Shown here: positions 4,122-59,539 of the stretch, piece by piece
How the letters are laid out: every line of letters starts with the position of its first letter
Position numbering within the stretch: the first letter of the stretch is position 1
Source of the DNA: Pseudomonas sp. LS44
GTDB lineage: Bacteria; Pseudomonadota; Gammaproteobacteria; Pseudomonadales; Pseudomonadaceae
Reading direction: 5' to 3'
Length of the DNA: 64,000 nt
Assembly: GCF_024730785.1 (NCBI RefSeq)
Contig: NZ_CP102830.1
Coordinates: 62,001 to 126,000 of the forward strand
The notes under the pieces: model-generated
What the model was told of the DNA's origin: nothing
The model's database searches: none
The model's input: the letters and a program-made list of their open reading frames with translations, nothing else
Made by a program: the position numbers and the translations under genes

Positions 4122-5021
4122 ATGGCTACTCTGCTGCGCGCCCACCAGGACCACGCCAGCTGGCGCGATTACCTGGAACTGACCAAACCGAAAGTGGTGG
4201 TGCTGATGCTGATCACCTCACTGGTCGGCATGTTCCTTGCCACCCGGGCTGGGGTGCCGTGGACGGTGCTGTTGTTCGGCAATCTCGGCATCGGCCTGTG
4301 CGCCGGCGGTGCGGCGGCGGTCAATCATGTGCTGGACCGGCGCATCGATTCGATCATGGCGCGCACCCACAAGCGGCCGGTGACGGCCGGGCGGGTGTCG
4401 CCGCTGGCGGCGTTGAGCTTCGCGCTGCTGCTGTCGGTGGCCGGCATGGCGTTGCTGCTGACGTTCACCAACCCGCTCACCGCCTGGCTGACCCTGGCCT
4501 CGCTGCTCGGCTATGCGGTGCTCTACACCGGCTTTCTCAAGCGCGCCACGCCGCAAAATATCGTCATCGGCGGCTTGGCCGGAGCAGCCCCGCCGATGCT
4601 CGGCTGGGTGGCGGTGACCGGCCATCTGGACCCTGGCGCATTTCTGCTGGTGCTGATCATCTTCGCCTGGACCCCGCCGCATTTCTGGGCGCTGGCGATC
4701 CACCGCAAGGAGGAATACGCCAAGGCTGACATCCCCATGCTGCCGGTCACCCATGGCGAGCATTACACCAAGGTGCATATCCTCCTTTATACCTTCGTGC
4801 TGCTGGCGGTGAGCCTGCTGCCGTTCACCATCCACATGAGCGGGCCGCTCTATCTGGCCTGCGCCGTGCTGCTCGGCGGACGCTTCCTGCACTGGGCGTG
4901 GGTGCTGTACCGTGACAGCAAACCGCACGCGGCGATCAACACCTTCAAGTACTCTATCGCCTACCTGTTTCTGCTGTTTATCGCCCTACTCGTCGATCAC
5001 TACTTACTGCTGAGCCTATGA
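4122..5021 (+). CDS. cyoE: Protohaem IX farnesyltransferase (haem O synthase)
   Basis: UbiA-family prenyltransferase (299 aa) that farnesylates haem B to haem O, the substrate of CtaA. The catalytic aspartate-rich motif is visible as [19 protein letters not shown], the second conserved loop as [20 protein letters not shown], and the third as [16 protein letters not shown]. About nine hydrophobic segments follow the usual CyoE pattern. A ribosome site GAGGAGAG lies before the ATG. The stop codon overlaps the first base of a 141-bp inverted-repeat element. Confidence 0.96.
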
Positions 5022-5160
5022 AGCAGCCCTCACAGTGGCTGCGCTCGGCCATGCGGCGTTAAAAATGGCTTCGGAATGCTCATTTACAGCTCGTAAACTC
5101 CGCTTCCTCAGCCATTTTTGCCTTGCCTGACCTTCGCTCGCCGACTTTGAGGACTGCTTC
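5020..5160 (+). repeat. Modular nested inverted repeat, copy 1
   Basis: The ends GAAGCAGCCCTCA (5020-5032) and TGAGGACTGCTTC (5148-5160) are inverted repeats with one mismatch. Inside are a perfect 10-bp stem AAAAATGGCT/AGCCATTTTT (5061-5070 and 5110-5119) and a central palindrome TTTAC...GTAAA (5083-5097). The element fills the entire cyoE-sco gap, from the cyoE stop codon to one base before the sco ATG. Five further copies lie at 27423, 36087, 37285, 50140 and 56764. Confidence 0.85.
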
Positions 5161-21917: not shown

Positions 21918-22048
21918 GAATGGCTGATGAAGCCCTTCGGTGCTCCTAATGTTGTGTTTAGTGTTGGCAGATCTCTGAACCCCGCCCTAGCGGTTCAGAT
22001 CTTAAACCCCGAGCCTCCCCTCCCCATACGAAGCTCGGGGTTTTTTTT
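21918..22048 (+). ncRNA. ersA: ErsA small regulatory RNA
   Basis: Located between polA and engB, the position of Spot 42 in E. coli and of ErsA in Pseudomonas. From the predicted sigma-22 start to the end of the terminator T-tract is about 131 nt, close to the known ErsA length. It contains two hairpins: GATCTCTGAACC...GGTTCAGATC (about 21970-22001) and the GC-rich terminator. The unstructured 5' part holds GCTCCTAATGTTGTG, a candidate seed region. ErsA is known to be envelope-stress controlled and to regulate algC post-transcriptionally, linking it to alginate and to kinB/algB in this window. The exact 5' end is inferred. Confidence 0.8.
22007..22048 (+). terminator. Rho-independent terminator of ErsA
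   Basis: CCCCGAGC (22007-22014) pairs with GCTCGGGG (22033-22040), followed by eight T residues. It also separates ErsA from the convergent engB gene. Confidence 0.9.
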
Positions 22049-22057
22049 GCCTGCGAT

Positions 22058-27422: not shown

Positions 27423-27592
27423 AGAGCCTGTCTACGATCTGCTGCGCGTCGGCCCTGCTGCGTTAAAAACAGGCTCGAAATGCTCATTTACAGCTCGTAA
27501 ACTCCGCTTCCTCGCCTGTTTTGACCAGCCGGAGGCTGTTACTAACGTAGCGTCTTGCATGGCTCTAGCTCGCGAGATCGTAAACAGGCTCT
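27423..27592. repeat. Modular nested inverted repeat, copy 2
   Basis: The outer arms AGAGCCTGTCTACGATCT (27423-27440) and AGATCGTAAACAGGCTCT (27575-27592) are inverted with one mismatch. The inner stem AAAACAGGC/GCCTGTTTT (27466-27474 and 27514-27522) is perfect, around the shared core TGCTCATTTACAGCTCGTAA. It lies between the cyclase gene and marC, ending 12 bases before the marC start. Confidence 0.88.
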
Positions 27593-35919: not shown

Positions 35920-36087
35920 ATGCTGAGTTGGGCCGTCACTTTCCTGATTATCGCCATCATCGCAGCGGTGCTGGGCTTTGGTGGTATCGCTGGCGCCGCC
36001 ACGGGCATCGCCAAAATCCTCTTTGTGGTGTTCATCGTGATGTTCATCGTCTCGCTGATCATGGGTCGGCGCGGACGCGGGCTCTAA
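35920..36087 (+). CDS. DUF1328 (UPF0391) small membrane protein
   Basis: A 55-residue, two-helix membrane protein: [20 protein letters not shown], then [20 protein letters not shown] and the basic tail GRRGRGL. This is the UPF0391/YtjA pattern. TTTAGGAG lies upstream of the ATG. The last base of the stop codon is the first base of an inverted-repeat element. Family function unknown. Confidence 0.9.
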
Positions 36088-36284
36088 GAACCTGTTTACG
36101 ATCTCCTGTCCGTTGGCCATACCGCGTTAAAAACAGGCTCGGAAAGCCGCTTGCGGCTAACGCGCTTTAGCGCGGCCCGAAGGGCGAGTGAAACGAGTAA
36201 TGCTCATTTACAGCTCGTGAACTCCGCTTCCTCGCCTGTTTTTGCCTTGTCTGGCTCTAGTCCAAAAGATCGTTTACAGGCTCT
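36087..36284. repeat. Modular nested inverted repeat, copy 3 (long form)
   Basis: Outer arms AGAACCTGTTTACGATCT (36087-36104) and AGATCGTTTACAGGCTCT (36267-36284); perfect inner stem AAAAACAGGC/GCCTGTTTTT (36129-36138 and 36234-36243). An extra internal hairpin of about 55 bases with AACGCGCTTTAGCGCGG is present, shared with copy 5. GCTCTAAG occurs at both borders (36081-36088 and 36280-36287). Confidence 0.88.
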
Positions 36285-36567
36285 AAGCCCTTGCCGATTC
36301 GCAGGGCATTGACCGGCGGCGCGGCAACCAAGAAAGCAGCAGTTGTGCCGCCCTGAAGAGGAACGGCACATGACCACGGGGTCGGGATGCTCTGAACGAT
36401 TCGGGTTCGGAGTGACCTAGGGGTACAGGGAGTACCTCCATAAAGGGCCGGGTCAGGCGCAAGTAGCGACGGCGACGGGTTTCCACCAGGGTGGGCCCGT
36501 TGCCCTCGTGCTTAACGCCAAGCCGTCCGGCACACCGGCGCTTGCGGCGATCCGCTTTGACGAGCGA
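36285..36567. other. Non-coding stretch with several stem-loops
   Basis: No credible gene in 283 bases; the only frame (minus strand, 67 codons) has no ribosome site or family resemblance. Visible hairpins: GCTCTGAAC...GGTTCGGAG (about 36390-36414), GGGGTACAGGGAGTACCTCC (36420-36439) and GGCGGC...GTTGTGCCGCC (about 36313-36346). It could hold a structured RNA, with no direct evidence. Confidence 0.3.
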
Positions 36568-37224: not shown

Positions 37225-37284
37225 CCGTGAAACTCCTAATGGTGGGGTAGTGCTTGGTCGTTATTGGTTGGGTTTGGCAGTTAT

Positions 37285-37424
37285 CAGGCTGTTGAAAAAC
37301 TACTGCGCGCGGTTATACCGCGTTGAAATCAGGCTCAAAATGCTCATTTACCACTCGTAAACTGCGCTTTTTCGCCTGATTTCGCCTTGTCTAGCCTTCG
37401 CTCGCTACGTTTTTCAACGGCCTG
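37285..37424. repeat. Modular nested inverted repeat, copy 4
   Basis: Outer arms CAGGCTGTTGAAAAAC (37285-37300) and GTTTTTCAACGGCCTG (37409-37424), one mismatch; perfect inner stem GAAATCAGGC/GCCTGATTTC (37325-37334 and 37374-37383); centre TTTACCACTCGTAAA. It ends one base before the wrbA stop codon. Confidence 0.88.
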
Positions 37425-38021
37425 TTATTGCAGGCGGGTGGTGAGTTTTGCCACATGGGCGCCCTGGTACGTGGCCAGGGCCAGCTCCATGAGGCTCGGC
37501 ATGCGCGAACCATCGCTACCGGCCACCGTGGCCGCCCCATAGGGCGAGCCGCCGCGCAGCTCGCTGATGTCGCTCAGCTCCGCTGCTGAGTACGGTAGAC
37601 CGACGATCAACATGCCATGGTGCGCGAGAGTGTGCCAGAACGAGGTGATGGTGGTTTCCGAGCCGCCGCCGGTTCCGGTGCTGGTGAATACGCTGGCGAA
37701 TTTGCCGATCAATGCGCCTTTGACCCACATGCCGCCGGTCTGGTCGAGAAAGCTGCGCATCTGCCCGCACATGTTGCCGAAGCGCGTTGGCGTGCCGAAC
37801 AGGATCGCGTCGTAGTCGGCCAGCTCCTGCACAGTGGCCACCGGCGCGGCCTGATCGAGCTTGGCGCCGGCCTTGCGGGCCAGGTCCTCGGGCATGGTTT
37901 CGGCTACCCGTTTCACCGTCACCTCGACCCCTGGCACGCTGCGCGCGCCTTCGGCGACCGCCTCGGCCATGCGTTCGATATGGCCGTACATCGAGTAGTA
38001 CAGGACCAGGATTTTCTTCAT
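37425..38021 (-). CDS. wrbA: NAD(P)H:quinone oxidoreductase WrbA
   Basis: FMN flavodoxin-like quinone reductase (198 aa) that reduces quinones by two electrons and avoids semiquinone formation. It begins [20 protein letters not shown] (FMN phosphate loop), then [34 protein letters not shown] and [12 protein letters not shown]. Minus strand; an inverted-repeat element abuts its stop codon and may act as its terminator. Confidence 0.95.
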
Positions 38022-50104: not shown

Positions 50105-50139
50105 TTCTCGGATTCTGCCCAAGCGCGGGCCATCCGGGT

Positions 50140-50340
50140 AGCAGGCCGTTGAAAAATTACCTGCGTTGCCGATCCGGCGTTAAAAATGGCCTCACAGCCG
50201 AAGGCTGAACGCGCTTTAGCGCGGCCCCGAAGTGGGTGAGCGGAGCGAATCAAGTGCTCATTTACAGCACGTAAACTGCGCTTTTCCGGCCGTTTTTGCC
50301 TTGTCTCGGCTGCCTCGCCTACATTTTTCAACGGTCTGCT
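50140..50340. repeat. Modular nested inverted repeat, copy 5 (long form)
   Basis: Outer arms AGCAGGCCGTTGAAAAAT (50140-50157) and ATTTTTCAACGGTCTGCT (50323-50340), one mismatch. Inner stem AAAAATGGCC/GGCCGTTTTT (50182-50191 and 50288-50297), where the single non-Watson-Crick position is a T/G pair. It contains the same extra hairpin (AACGCGCTTTAGCGCGG) as copy 3. It lies 35 bases upstream of the araC start. Confidence 0.88.
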
Positions 50341-50399
50341 AGGGGCACGCGTGTCGGCCCGGCCGCGCGGCGGGTCGCTGGGCCATGGGGTGGTCGAAC

Positions 50400-56005: not shown

Positions 56006-59000
56006 ATGCTCAACCTCTACCACGCCCCCGATCTGGAAACCCTCGGCGCCCTGGCGACCGCCCTGCTCGCCCAACCGCAGCGCGACCCGCTGGCGCCGGC
56101 GCGGGTGGTGGTGCCGAGTCAGGGGATCGGTCGCTGGCTGAGCCTCGAGCTGGCGCGCGAGCAAGGCATTGCCATGCATCTGGACGTGCAGCTGCCGGCC
56201 AAGTTCGTCTGGGAACTGACCCGTCAGGTGCTCGGTCAGTTGCCCGAGCAATCGGCCTTTTCCCCGCAGACCCTCGCCTGGCGCCTGTATGACTGGTTGT
56301 GCGAACCGGCCAACCTCGACCGCGCGCCGCGTCTGGCCCAGTACCTGGAAGGCGGCGACGAACGCCGGCGGCTGTCCCTGGCGGCGCGGATAGCCGATGT
56401 GTTCGACCAATATCTGTTGTACCGCGACGACTGGCTGGCTGCCTGGGAACGCAACGAACTGCTCGAGCTGGGTCGCGACGAAGCCTGGCAGGCGCTGCTG
56501 TGGCGCGAGCTGACTGCCGAGGGCCATCCGCATCGCGCGCGCCTGCTCGACGATCTGCTCCAGCGCCTGCATGACCCGGCGCCGCTCGCCGGCCTGCCCG
56601 AGCGCCTGCTGGTGTTCGGCATCAGCAGCCTGCCGCCGCACCACTTGCGCGTGCTGGACGGCCTGGCGCGGCATACCGAGGTGGTGATCTTCGCCCTCAA
56701 TCCGTGCCGCGAGGCGTGGGGCGAAATCCGCGACGTTCGCGAGTTGGCCAAGGGGGCGTTTGGCGGGCGAGCGGAAAGCGTCGCGAGCGCAGAGCAGGCA
56801 AGGCAAAACCAGGAGAGGGAGCGGAGTGTACGAGTAGTACATGAGCATCCCGAGCCTGGTTTTAACGCAGCCTCCTCAAGCGCAGCAGCTTCTCCGCCGC
56901 TCGCCCCCGACGACTGGTACCTCGACGTCGGCCACCCGTTACTGGCCAGTCTCGGCAAGCAGGGCCGCGACTTCTTCGACAGCCTGTTCGCCCTCACCGC
57001 CGAAGAAGGCGGGCAGGACACCGGGTTGTATTCCGAAGACGCCGACCTGCACGACGACAGCCTGCTGCACGCCCTGCAACACGACATTCTGCGCCTGCGC
57101 ACCCGGCTGCCGGAGGAACGCGTGCAGCTGCGCGACGACGACCGCTCGCTGGAACTGCACATCGCCCATTCGCCGTTGCGCGAAGTGGAGATCCTCCACG
57201 ATCAGCTGCTCGCCCGCTTCGCCGCCGACCCCAGCCTGAGCCCCGATCAGGTGGTGGTCCTGACCCCCGACATCGAGCGCTACGCGCCCTATATCGAAGC
57301 GGTGTTCGCGTCCCGCCAGGGCACCCCGCGCGATGGCGTGCCGCGGGCCGTGGCGCCGCGCATTCCGTTCAGCCTGGCCGACCGCAGCCTGCGCAAGGAA
57401 GTGCCGCTGCTGGAGGCCTTCCTCGAACTGCTAGGCCTGCCAGAAAGCCGCTTCGCCGCCGAAGAGGTGCTCACCTGGCTGGAGCAACCGGCCATCGCCC
57501 GCCGTGCCGGCATCGAAGCCGAAGACCTACCGCTGCTGCGCGACTGGCTGCACGAAGCCGGCGTGCGCTGGAGCCTGGATGCTGCGCATCGCGGCCGCCT
57601 GGGTCTGCCGGAAGATGCCGCGTTCAGCTGGCGCCAGGGTCTCGACCGCTTGCTGCTGGGTTTCGCCGCGCCGCCGCAACTGGCCGGTGACGGCCTGCCG
57701 CTGCTCGGCGGCAATTGGCCACTGGATGCGGTGGAAGGCGGCCGTGGCCAGCTGCTCGGGCGTCTCGCCGCGTTCATCGAGCGCCTCGCCAGCTGGGCTG
57801 AACAGTTGCAACGGCCGCGACCGCTGGCCGAGTGGGCCGACAGCCTGCAACTGCTGATCGACGGCCTGTTCGACGAGCGCGAGGCCGGCGACAGCCTGTT
57901 GCTGCTCAGCCAGGCCTGCGCCGCGCTGCGTGACCAGGCCGAGGCGTCCGGCATTCAGCGTCCGCTGGAACTCGCCCTGTTGCGCCAACAACTCACCGGC
58001 CAGCTGGAACAGGGCGGCAGCGCCTCGGGATTCCTGACCGGCGCGGTGACCTTCTGCACCATGGTGCCGATGCGCAGCCTGCCGTTTCGCTGGGTCTGCC
58101 TGCTCGGCCTGGATGACGGCGCGCTGCCGCGCCGCGCGCCGGCCGCCGGCTTTGACCTGATCGCCCAGCGCCCGCGACGCGGCGACCGCGCGCGGCGCCT
58201 CGACGACCGCTACCTGCTGCTGGAAACCCTGCTCTCGGCGCGCGACGGCCTGTACCTCAGCTATGTCGGCCGCGACCCGCGCGACAACGCCCACCTGCCG
58301 CCCTCGGTGCTGATCAGCGAAGTGCTCGAAGCCGTCGACCTCACCGCCGTGGGTAGGAGCGGATTGATCCGCGATCCAGGCAGCGCAGAAGCATCGCGAA
58401 TGAATTCGCTCCTACCAGAAGAGCAGAAAGCCAGCGCGCAGATCACCATCGCCCATCCGCTGCAGCCGTTCGCCGCTGGCAACTTCCAACCCAGCGGCGC
58501 GCATCAGGGTTTCGCCGCGCCATGGTTCCGCGCCGCCCAGCGCCTGGCCGAAGCGCCGCTGCGGCAAGCCCCGGCGTTTATCGAACGGCTGCCGGAGCCG
58601 GCCGCCGACGGGCCGGGCGGCGCTCCGCTGATCATCGAGCCGGCGCAACTGTTGCTGTGCTTCCGCCAGCCGGCGCGCTTCCTGCTCGAACAGCGCTTGG
58701 GGTTGCGCCTGGCCGATGCCGACGAAGCCATCGCCGCCGATGAACCCTTCGCCCTCGAAGGCTCGGCGCGCCGCGGCCTGCGTCTGCTCGCCCTGGATTC
58801 CATCGAGCGCGGCTGGAGCGAGCACGCCGAGCGCCAGGTAGCCCGCGCCGCCGGCTGGCTGCCGTCCGGTGAACTCGGCCACGCGCTCTGGGGCCAGCTG
58901 CGCGGCCCGGTGCGCGCGTTCGCGCCCAAGCTGTTCGAGTTGCGCCCGGCCGAGGCGCCACAGCCGTTGCTGGTGGATATTCAGCTGGCCGGCGTACGCG

Positions 59001-59539
59001 TGTACGGCTGGCTCGATGGGGTGACCAGCGAGGGCCTGTTCGACTGGCGCCTGTATGCGCCCGGCGCCTGGGACTTGCCTGGCTTCTGGCTGCGCCACCT
59101 GCTGCTCAACTGCGCCGTGACCGCGGGTGCCGCGCCGCTCGGCATCGCCCGCCACAGCCGGCTGATTTCGCCGACTGGCGACTGGCAACTCGGCCCGCTG
59201 GACAACCCGACCGCGCTGCTCGAAGCCTGGCTGGTCGGCTACCGCGAGGCGCTCTGCGCGCCGCTGCCGTTCCTCACCCGCAGCAGCTATGCCTTCGCCA
59301 AATCGCTGTGCACGCCAAGCGCGCGCAGCAAGAAGGAGCCGATCGACGCCGCCCGCGGCGCCGCGCAAGCCGCCTGGCTCGGCGCTGACTTCAGCCCGAT
59401 CCCCGGCGAGAGCCTCGATCCCTGGTACGCCCTGGCCTTCCGCGACCGCGACCCGCTGGACGCGCGCTTCGAAACACTCGCCGAACAACTGCTCGGCCCG
59501 GCGCTGCGTGCCCTGGCCAGCGACGAGGACGACGCATGA
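56006..59539 (+). CDS. recC: Exodeoxyribonuclease V subunit RecC
   Basis: A 1177-residue subunit of RecBCD, the double-strand-break processing enzyme; RecC splits the DNA ends and recognises Chi. It starts MLNLYHAPDLETLG as in E. coli RecC (MLRVYHSNRLDVLE). Conserved stretches: GIGRWLSLELAREQGIAM, LNPCREAWGEIRDV, GHPLLASLGKQGRDFF, LPLGFD-like AAGFDLIAQRPRRGDRARR and YISYIGR-like LYLSYVGRDPRDN. Two dispersed repeats are read through in frame: an inverted-repeat element (residues about 253-301) and a REP pair (residues about 783-804). The stop overlaps the recB ATG. Confidence 0.95.
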   Translation: MLNLYHAPDLETLGALATALLAQPQRDPLAPARVVVPSQGIGRWLSLELAREQGIAMHLDVQLPAKFVWELTRQVLGQLPEQSAFSPQTLAWRLYDWLCEPANLDRAPRLAQYLEGGDERRRLSLAARIADVFDQYLLYRDDWLAAWERNELLELGRDEAWQALLWRELTAEGHPHRARLLDDLLQRLHDPAPLAGLPERLLVFGISSLPPHHLRVLDGLARHTEVVIFALNPCREAWGEIRDVRELAKGAFGGRAESVASAEQARQNQERERSVRVVHEHPEPGFNAASSSAAASPPLAPDDWYLDVGHPLLASLGKQGRDFFDSLFALTAEEGGQDTGLYSEDADLHDDSLLHALQHDILRLRTRLPEERVQLRDDDRSLELHIAHSPLREVEILHDQLLARFAADPSLSPDQVVVLTPDIERYAPYIEAVFASRQGTPRDGVPRAVAPRIPFSLADRSLRKEVPLLEAFLELLGLPESRFAAEEVLTWLEQPAIARRAGIEAEDLPLLRDWLHEAGVRWSLDAAHRGRLGLPEDAAFSWRQGLDRLLLGFAAPPQLAGDGLPLLGGNWPLDAVEGGRGQLLGRLAAFIERLASWAEQLQRPRPLAEWADSLQLLIDGLFDEREAGDSLLLLSQACAALRDQAEASGIQRPLELALLRQQLTGQLEQGGSASGFLTGAVTFCTMVPMRSLPFRWVCLLGLDDGALPRRAPAAGFDLIAQRPRRGDRARRLDDRYLLLETLLSARDGLYLSYVGRDPRDNAHLPPSVLISEVLEAVDLTAVGRSGLIRDPGSAEASRMNSLLPEEQKASAQITIAHPLQPFAAGNFQPSGAHQGFAAPWFRAAQRLAEAPLRQAPAFIERLPEPAADGPGGAPLIIEPAQLLLCFRQPARFLLEQRLGLRLADADEAIAADEPFALEGSARRGLRLLALDSIERGWSEHAERQVARAAGWLPSGELGHALWGQLRGPVRAFAPKLFELRPAEAPQPLLVDIQLAGVRVYGWLDGVTSEGLFDWRLYAPGAWDLPGFWLRHLLLNCAVTAGAAPLGIARHSRLISPTGDWQLGPLDNPTALLEAWLVGYREALCAPLPFLTRSSYAFAKSLCTPSARSKKEPIDAARGAAQAAWLGADFSPIPGESLDPWYALAFRDRDPLDARFETLAEQLLGPALRALASDEDDA
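56764..56906 (-). repeat. Modular nested inverted repeat, copy 6, in frame within recC
   Basis: Minus-strand orientation. Core stem AAAACCAGG (56805-56813) and CCTGGTTTT (56855-56863); centre (minus strand) TGTACTACTCGTACA in place of TTTACAGCTCGTAAA; outer arms GGCGAGCGG (56766-56774) and CCGCTCGCC (56897-56905). No stop codon in the recC frame. The encoded stretch includes RAESVASAEQARQNQERERS. Confidence 0.8.
58353..58415. repeat. REP pair (GTAGGAGCG...CGCTCCTAC) in frame within recC
   Basis: GTAGGAGCGGATTGATCCGC at left, CGCGAATGAATTCGCTCCTA plus C at right: two facing REP units, 63 bp, exactly 21 codons. Translated as part of GRSGLIRDPGSAEASRMNSL. Same family as the units at 16708 and 17509. 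Confidence 0.85.

Follow-up and report, generated by a model that had tools for sequence, protein, structure and literature searches.

The 64-kb window analysed here, the whole stretch of Pseudomonas sp. LS44 DNA to which the positions in Table 1 refer, carries a short nested inverted repeat in several places, and the question is what kind of element this is and why its paired parts change together. The first-pass annotation had taken the compensatory changes as a sign that a folded RNA or single strand is under selection, or that the element moves by a hairpin-dependent mechanism, and had not recognised a named family. We propose, with a probability of about 0.7, that the repeats are non-autonomous mobile palindromes that form the Pseudomonas branch, sister to ERIC, of a phylum-wide superfamily including the sX9-containing elements, with varied outer arms and a conserved, strand-specific core.

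A pattern built on the core found exactly six copies in the window, where they had been placed before, and none in 100 shuffles. The copies were scored with R1, a covariance model of the 86-nt core built without any ERIC sequence (Table 1). When the sequences were re-read, the changes in the inner stems and at the centre were as originally stated, and the outer arms were of four unrelated sequences: copies 2 and 3 have a common type, copies 4 and 5 have another, and copies 1 and 6 each have their own. The greater length of copies 3 and 5 is due to inserts of 56 to 57 nt at one fixed internal position, and that of copy 2 to extra sequence in its right arm. The first duplicated TAA of copy 3 is also the stop codon of a short open reading frame that starts at 35920. 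Copy 6 lies within recC, and the reading frame is open throughout it. It is absent at the same place in two relatives (G013 and G014) whose recC matches on either side, and the linker differs in length there so that an exact empty site is not definable from this comparison. An Rfam scan of the window returned two families at cut-off, ErsA and ivy-DE.

Table 1. Repeat copies and other features in the 64-kb window, with arm types, flanking duplications and model scores.
Feature	Position	Strand	Arms, flanks and inserts	Score
Copy 1	5020..5160	-	own arm type GAAGCAG.../...CTGCTTC; folded core 5047-5132	R1 104.7 bits
Copy 2	27424..27591	-	arm type A, GAGCCTGT...; flanks TTA / TCA, non-identical; right arm with extra sequence	R1 75.0 bits
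Copy 3	36088..36283	-	arm type A; target duplication TAA at 36085-36087 and 36284-36286; 56-nt insert in left arm	R1 36.9 bits
Copy 4	37285..37425	-	arm type B, CAGGCTGTTGAAAAA...; target duplication TAT at 37282-37284 and 37426-37428	R1 99.2 bits
Copy 5	50142..50339	-	arm type B; target duplication TAG at 50139-50141 and 50340-50342; 57-nt insert in left arm	R1 28.8 bits, partial match, positions 27-59 of 86
Copy 6	56765..56906	+	own arm type; within recC ORF	R1 96.7 bits
recC ORF	56006..59539			TIGR01450, 924.6 bits
ErsA (Pseudomon-1)	21940..22056			Rfam, at cut-off
ivy-DE	36371..36463			Rfam, at cut-off

Each element is an imperfect palindrome of about 140 bp in which outer arms surround an 86-nt core with four nested stems and conserved internal loops. 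On the folded strand, the order is S4 (8 bp), the loop CAAGGC / AACGCN, S3 (10 bp), GA / GA, S2 (4 bp), GCGSAG / TGAGCA, S1 (5 bp) and a terminal loop of 4 to 6 nt; the first C of the CAAGGC / AACGCN loop is paired as the end of S4. Pairing was tabulated for the 139 of 222 copies with standard spacing, the other 83 being left out. Watson-Crick pairs occupied 688 of 695 cells in S1, 538 of 556 in S2, 1328 of 1390 in S3 and 886 of 1112 in S4. No pattern or filter had fixed the letters of the GA x GA loop (TC x TC when read on the opposite strand), and 22 of its 278 cells were Watson-Crick. For the remaining two loops the figures were 0 of 834 and, one constant G-C pair aside, 8 of 556, with a constancy that is partly by construction since the letters of GCGSAG/TGAGCA were fixed by the collecting patterns and those of AAGGC/AACGC by a later filter. 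RNAalifold placed extra pairs within the GCGSAG/TGAGCA loop, shifting it by one base, and one of these pairs (columns 30 and 55) is compensatory in distant copies, being GC, CG (L323, L328 and L330) or AT (L312). S3 is wholly missing in two copies (L324 and L331).

Close to the GA/GA loop there are two fixed places, one per arm, where some copies carry inserts of about 56 nt with many small hairpins (about 36143-36200 and 50195-50254 in the window, as well as L017, L021, L036 and others). Among 79 parsed copies from the LS44 genome, the left place was occupied in 11 and the right place in 18. Inserts of about 16 nt were seen at the left place in copies from other genomes.

The covariation of the stems was examined in a wider set of copies. 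From the 139 copies, 129 had a 5-nt terminal loop, 66 remained at less than 93% identity and 65, from LS44 and other genomes, were aligned after a second L170 copy was left out. Both sides had changed in 23 of the 27 pairs. There were 349 cells with a double change compared to 107.2 ± 9.4 after shuffling, and 93.4% of cells were paired compared to 75.1% after shuffling and at most 48.0% when the partner was slid by one column; the shuffle control ignores the kinship of the copies and these figures are not probabilities. In 29 more distant matches, all 27 pairs had changed on both sides, with 234 double-change cells against 65.4 ± 8.3 shuffled, in an alignment that was fitted to the model and hence is biased towards it. 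The nested covarying stems of the first-pass annotation are real, but they number four inner stems plus the outer arms rather than three.

The mismatches within the stems indicate which strand folds. On the strand that reads TGAGCA, G·U outnumbered A·C by 36 to 10 (p = 1.6e-4) with the outermost S4 pair omitted, and by 40 to 24 with it included. Since mutation of double-stranded DNA gives G·T as often as A·C over both strands, the G·U excess marks one strand. Over all columns, A·G outnumbered C·U by 70 to 1 on the same strand; 38 of the 70 came from one column, and 32 to 1 remained in the stems once two columns were omitted. The loop that is TC x TC on the other strand reads GA x GA on this one, and tandem G·A is a common motif. 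As the mismatches are mostly G·U and G·A on one strand, that strand is the folded one. Fold prediction likewise favoured the TGAGCA strand, which was the more stable one in 64 of 66 copies under RNA parameters and in 65 of 66 under DNA parameters. A single strand of TGAGCA sense thus appears to be under selection, be it as RNA or as single-stranded DNA, and the covariation and the strand-specific mismatch bias together support the original suggestion to this effect.

Matched arms can also arise from copying errors, since template switching in quasi-palindromes rewrites one arm from the other in the absence of any selection. Such a process makes matched arms quickly, and it fits single copies that by eye have outer arms of their own which nevertheless match (L001, L006 and L075). 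However, it would tend to erase the internal loops, of which GA x GA is so rarely Watson-Crick, and it predicts no strand bias in the mismatches, against the 70 to 1 ratio of A·G to C·U. We consider it very unlikely as the source of the pairing in general, and propose that template switching may act on the outer arms.

A strand-specific fold could instead belong to the host, as a regulatory RNA structure in its transcripts that affects, for instance, mRNA stability. In Yersinia, ERIC is reported to alter mRNA decay in an orientation-dependent way (PMC2229807, citing De Gregorio 2005). The folded-strand signature of the core would suit this explanation, and a cruder count in the LS44 genome found 29 copies in the same sense as the tandem genes around them and 17 in the other (p 0.10). 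The wider count of gaps between tandem genes, over LS44, named and related loci, gave 35 copies in the same sense and 41 in the opposite one, and the number of copies ranges from 0 to 90 per genome within the genus; both argue against a host regulatory role, which we regard as improbable for the family as a whole. Since the elements show no orientation bias to neighbouring genes, the fold is probably of use to the element itself rather than to the adjacent host gene. A minority of copies may have effects on host mRNA.

The distribution of the family was examined at the level of the genome, the genus and the phylum. In the 4.46-Mb LS44 genome, the core pattern had 91 matches (77 of them exact), split 43 to 48 between the two strands, while a reversed control pattern had none. 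These copies are dispersed over the chromosome with no array, and 87 distinct copies could be parsed from the matches; two copies of the sX9 type were missed by the pattern. Within the genus, 34 of 59 sampled genomes, LS44 included, had core matches. Across the phylum, R1 had matches at E ≤ 0.001 in 95 of 299 genomes, and in 59 of 239 when good-quality genomes were considered. The named hosts among the pattern matches listed included Pseudomonas, Stutzerimonas, Halomonas, Marinobacter, Nitrosomonas, Rahnella and metagenome-assembled genomes (MAGs) labelled Desulfobacterales. Among the distant R1 matches, the outer arms vary between lineages and CAAGGC, GCGSAG, TGAGCA and AACGC are mostly kept. 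Copies in Nitrosomonadales and Gallionella MAGs (L091, L094, L104, L198 and L199) were seen to have the same core between arms with TTACTGTGTCACAAAGCG, quite unlike the other arm types. A different repeat was noticed by eye at three LS44 loci (L033, L244 and L249); it has CTAGTGGCCTGT arms, CAAGGC / AACGC motifs and another centre, and looks like a more distant cousin.

The conserved core relates this family to ERIC. R1 found all 11 ERIC sequences examined (10 ERIC copies and one ERIC-like match). In every case the top match in the locus fell on the centre of ERIC, and its strand was the one expected. The E values ranged from 1.2e-6 to 0.12, seven of them at E ≤ 2.6e-4. The scores were 29.7 bits for Lelliottia (E 1.2e-6), 29.0 for Enterobacter, 25.0 for Klebsiella michiganensis, 22.2 for Rahnella, 21.9 for the ERIC-like match, 21.5 for K. 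aerogenes and 21.3 for Citrobacter. The ERICs of E. coli itself scored weakly, with 20.0 bits (E 0.004, the first of 14 matches in 40 kb) for a copy in K-12 and 11.2 and 10.4 bits (E 0.07 and 0.12) for two further copies; Kosakonia gave 13.6 bits (E 0.038). In the reverse direction, the ERIC-only model R2 ranked copies 1, 4, 6 and 2 as the first four of 24 matches in the window (E 0.0017, 0.013, 0.73 and 0.99, respectively), and its matches did not include copies 3 and 5, the two with inserts. At the nucleotide level, the ERIC core with up to 3 mismatches was absent from the LS44 genome and present in one of 369 genomes of the class.

The two families have much in common. ERIC (also IRU or RU-1) is 127 bp long, with TA ends, duplications and in-frame fusions to genes according to the accounts in PMC2229807, PMC10969869, PMC2759123 and PMC2267715. 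Both it and the Pseudomonas element of about 140 bp are imperfect palindromes with TA at the ends that are mostly intergenic and sometimes in frame within genes. Both have the core motifs AAGGC, GA, GGAG-stem-TGA, GA and AACGC in this order on the same strand, and R1 and R2 find each other's targets. They differ in that the outer arms of the Pseudomonas family are unlike those of ERIC and of several kinds, that S3 is a full 10-bp helix in the Pseudomonas family and only partly formed in ERIC, and that TNA duplications flank the type-A Pseudomonas copies. The hosts are likewise different, Pseudomonas and other lineages of the phylum compared to the Enterobacteriaceae and Vibrionaceae in which PMC10969869 places ERIC. 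ERIC cores were present in 275 plasmid records and in 29 from the phage collection, whereas copy 4 of the window was found by nucleotide similarity on 8 of 72,556 plasmid records and had no match in the phage collection or in E. coli. We conclude that the Pseudomonas family is an ERIC-like mobile palindrome, similar to ERIC in how it works and homologous to it, but not ERIC in the strict sense.

A second relation is to the Rfam family sX9 (RF02228), named for Xanthomonas. Its consensus runs from the hairpin centre into the right arm, where it ends, and is read on the opposite strand. Of 369 genomes of the class, 11 contained sX9, with 29 matches in all, and 13 of these scored above the Rfam cut-off. 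R1 overlapped 23 of the 29 (E ≤ 0.009), including all 13 above the cut-off, and in each case lay on the strand opposite to sX9. The LS44 genome has two of the matches above the cut-off (270946-271020 and 3180668-3180742 in genome coordinates, 61.9 and 60.9 bits), and R1 overlapped both. The window had no sX9 match at the cut-off, copy 4 reaching 20.1 bits against the required 44. The sX9 family differs from the present one in that it covers only half of the hairpin, on the other strand, and is annotated as a small RNA (sRNA) rather than a repeat. It is listed among the most numerous bacterial sRNA annotations in PMC9029176, a number that fits sX9 being a repeat. These results suggest that sX9 in Rfam represents one half of an element of this kind. 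The description of the family as unnamed thus needs to be amended in that it is homologous to ERIC and sX9, and stands in that it is neither of them in the strict sense.

The outer arms vary much more than the core. By loose clustering they fell into 16 groups, and the two arms agreed at a minimum of 12 out of 14 bases in 135 of 242 copies, compared to 22 of 242 when arms were taken from other copies. Two copies (L075 and L194) seem by eye to lie inside a terminator-like palindrome of the host, whose sequence extends the arms. The ends were readable in 39 type-A and 34 type-B copies of the 87 parsed from LS44. In type A (GARCCTGTTTACGATCT arms), 31 of 39 copies had TNA on both sides. The 3 bp were the same on the two sides in 26 of 39, a number that averaged 9.2 and never exceeded 18 over 5000 permutations. 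In type B (CAGGCCGTTGAAAAA arms), TAN was identical in 21 of 34 copies, where the permutations averaged 10.6 and reached 19 at most. TA was present on both sides in 26 of 34 type-B copies, which hardly exceeds the permutation mean of 23.9 because nearly every flank is TA. Ends with 3-bp target duplications are what DDE transposases leave, and the hairpin-dependent movement considered at first is not supported.

These duplications also bear on a further explanation, that the family consists of single-stranded-DNA elements like those of REP/RAYT or integron attC, recombined in the form of a folded strand. In attC sites one strand folds and the loops are conserved, as in the present elements. Target duplications, on the other hand, are to our knowledge not left by Y1 transposases or integron integrases. 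There was no replication-strand bias in the LS44 genome either (51 versus 40, p 0.29, with the origin near base 1 as judged by eye from dnaA and the terminus near 2.2 Mb from sampled GC skew), and the protein clusters listed showed no gene family that recurred in linkage with the copies, the large clusters looking like common superfamilies from one sequence read of each. We find it hard to credit this explanation.

A source of transposition was sought as well. No linked transposase gene was found among the loci examined. Searches of the LS44 genome with type-A and type-B ends revealed no autonomous element among the 100 of 122 and 100 of 112 places listed, respectively; the ends listed belonged to element copies, deletion derivatives in the form of palindromes of 38 to 80 bp, or lone ends, with no facing pair at the distance of an insertion sequence. 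Twelve of the type-A places without a known core were fetched and 170 bases around 11 of them inspected, and at L242, L244, L251 and L252 palindromes of type-A ends, 38 to 80 bp long, were seen with the core mostly deleted. Longer, gene-carrying versions were also sought among 255 cores, of which 200 had matching arms nearby and 42 had neither; the 13 distant candidates were judged to be due to chance. In 59 genomes, the number of copies was not correlated with that of PF01609 transposases (rho 0.04, p 0.78), a domain that does not cover all transposases, and three genomes (G028, G041 and G054) had 17 to 25 copies each and zero PF01609 transposases. When 32 PF01609 loci of the genus (29 new and three from LS44) were scanned for nine arm types, there was one clear case amid scattered matches with 1 to 3 mismatches, which included a type-E palindrome in L339 away from the transposase. 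The clear case, at 738-2410 of L240 in the LS44 genome, is an IS1182-family element with its transposase split over two reading frames, and its ends resemble an arm type of repeats in relatives such as L226 and L232.

It could be argued that such an element is an ordinary MITE, the leftover of an insertion sequence with a functionless core in which arm matching is the sole constraint. This is suggested by the resemblance of the arms to insertion-sequence ends, by the 3-bp duplications beside them and by the IS1182-family element in the same genome with ends like one arm type. Yet conservation over the phylum is in the core and not in the arms, and inner stems far from the ends covary with a strand bias. 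An ordinary MITE is in our judgment a poor account of the family, with little chance of being correct. Known bacterial MITEs with TA ends, namely RUP and Correia/NEMIS, are similarly short and non-autonomous with terminal inverted repeats, target duplications and hairpin transcripts (PMC2229807). These families are described through their ends and in a single host group each, whereas the Pseudomonas family keeps its core over the phylum and varies its ends. REP, BIME and REPIN sequences resemble the family as abundant intergenic palindromes in Pseudomonas; the family differs from them in having target duplications and in being several times the length of a REP (20-40 bp, PMC3733652).

We favor the reading of the family as non-autonomous mobile palindromes whose arms and core have separate roles. 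A DDE transposase supplied in trans, such as an IS5-, IS630- or IS1182-like enzyme, would act at the arms. The core may be kept because some factor that aids the persistence or spread of the element recognises the folded strand, in the form of either RNA or single-stranded DNA. A more specific version, which is conceivable though rather unlikely, would see the folded core as the dedicated recognition RNA or single-stranded DNA of a phylum-wide, SINE-like bacterial parasite of transposases. Its one ancient core would ride on insertion-sequence ends present locally by swapping its outer arms, and would be kept by a conserved factor that binds the G·A-rich loops, with ERIC, the elements of the sX9 'sRNA' and the Pseudomonas family as three branches.

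What is new here is how broad the superfamily is, that differing arms surround a fixed core, that the fold is strand-specific and its stems covary, and that the family is linked to sX9. In the literature searched, no link of a Pseudomonas repeat to ERIC or sX9 was found, and a prior description is possible. ERIC is widely used in strain typing. Its mobility is still described as unresolved in the accounts of PMC2229807 and PMC2759123. Our results place ERIC in a family that spans the phylum and whose fold is well supported, with one strand likely to be the active one and a few conserved loop bases, and this makes its mobility and function testable: the conserved loops tell what to mutate and the folded strand tells what to look for. 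They further suggest that one of the sRNA families in Rfam represents half a mobile repeat, a point that matters for the interpretation of sRNA counts per genome.
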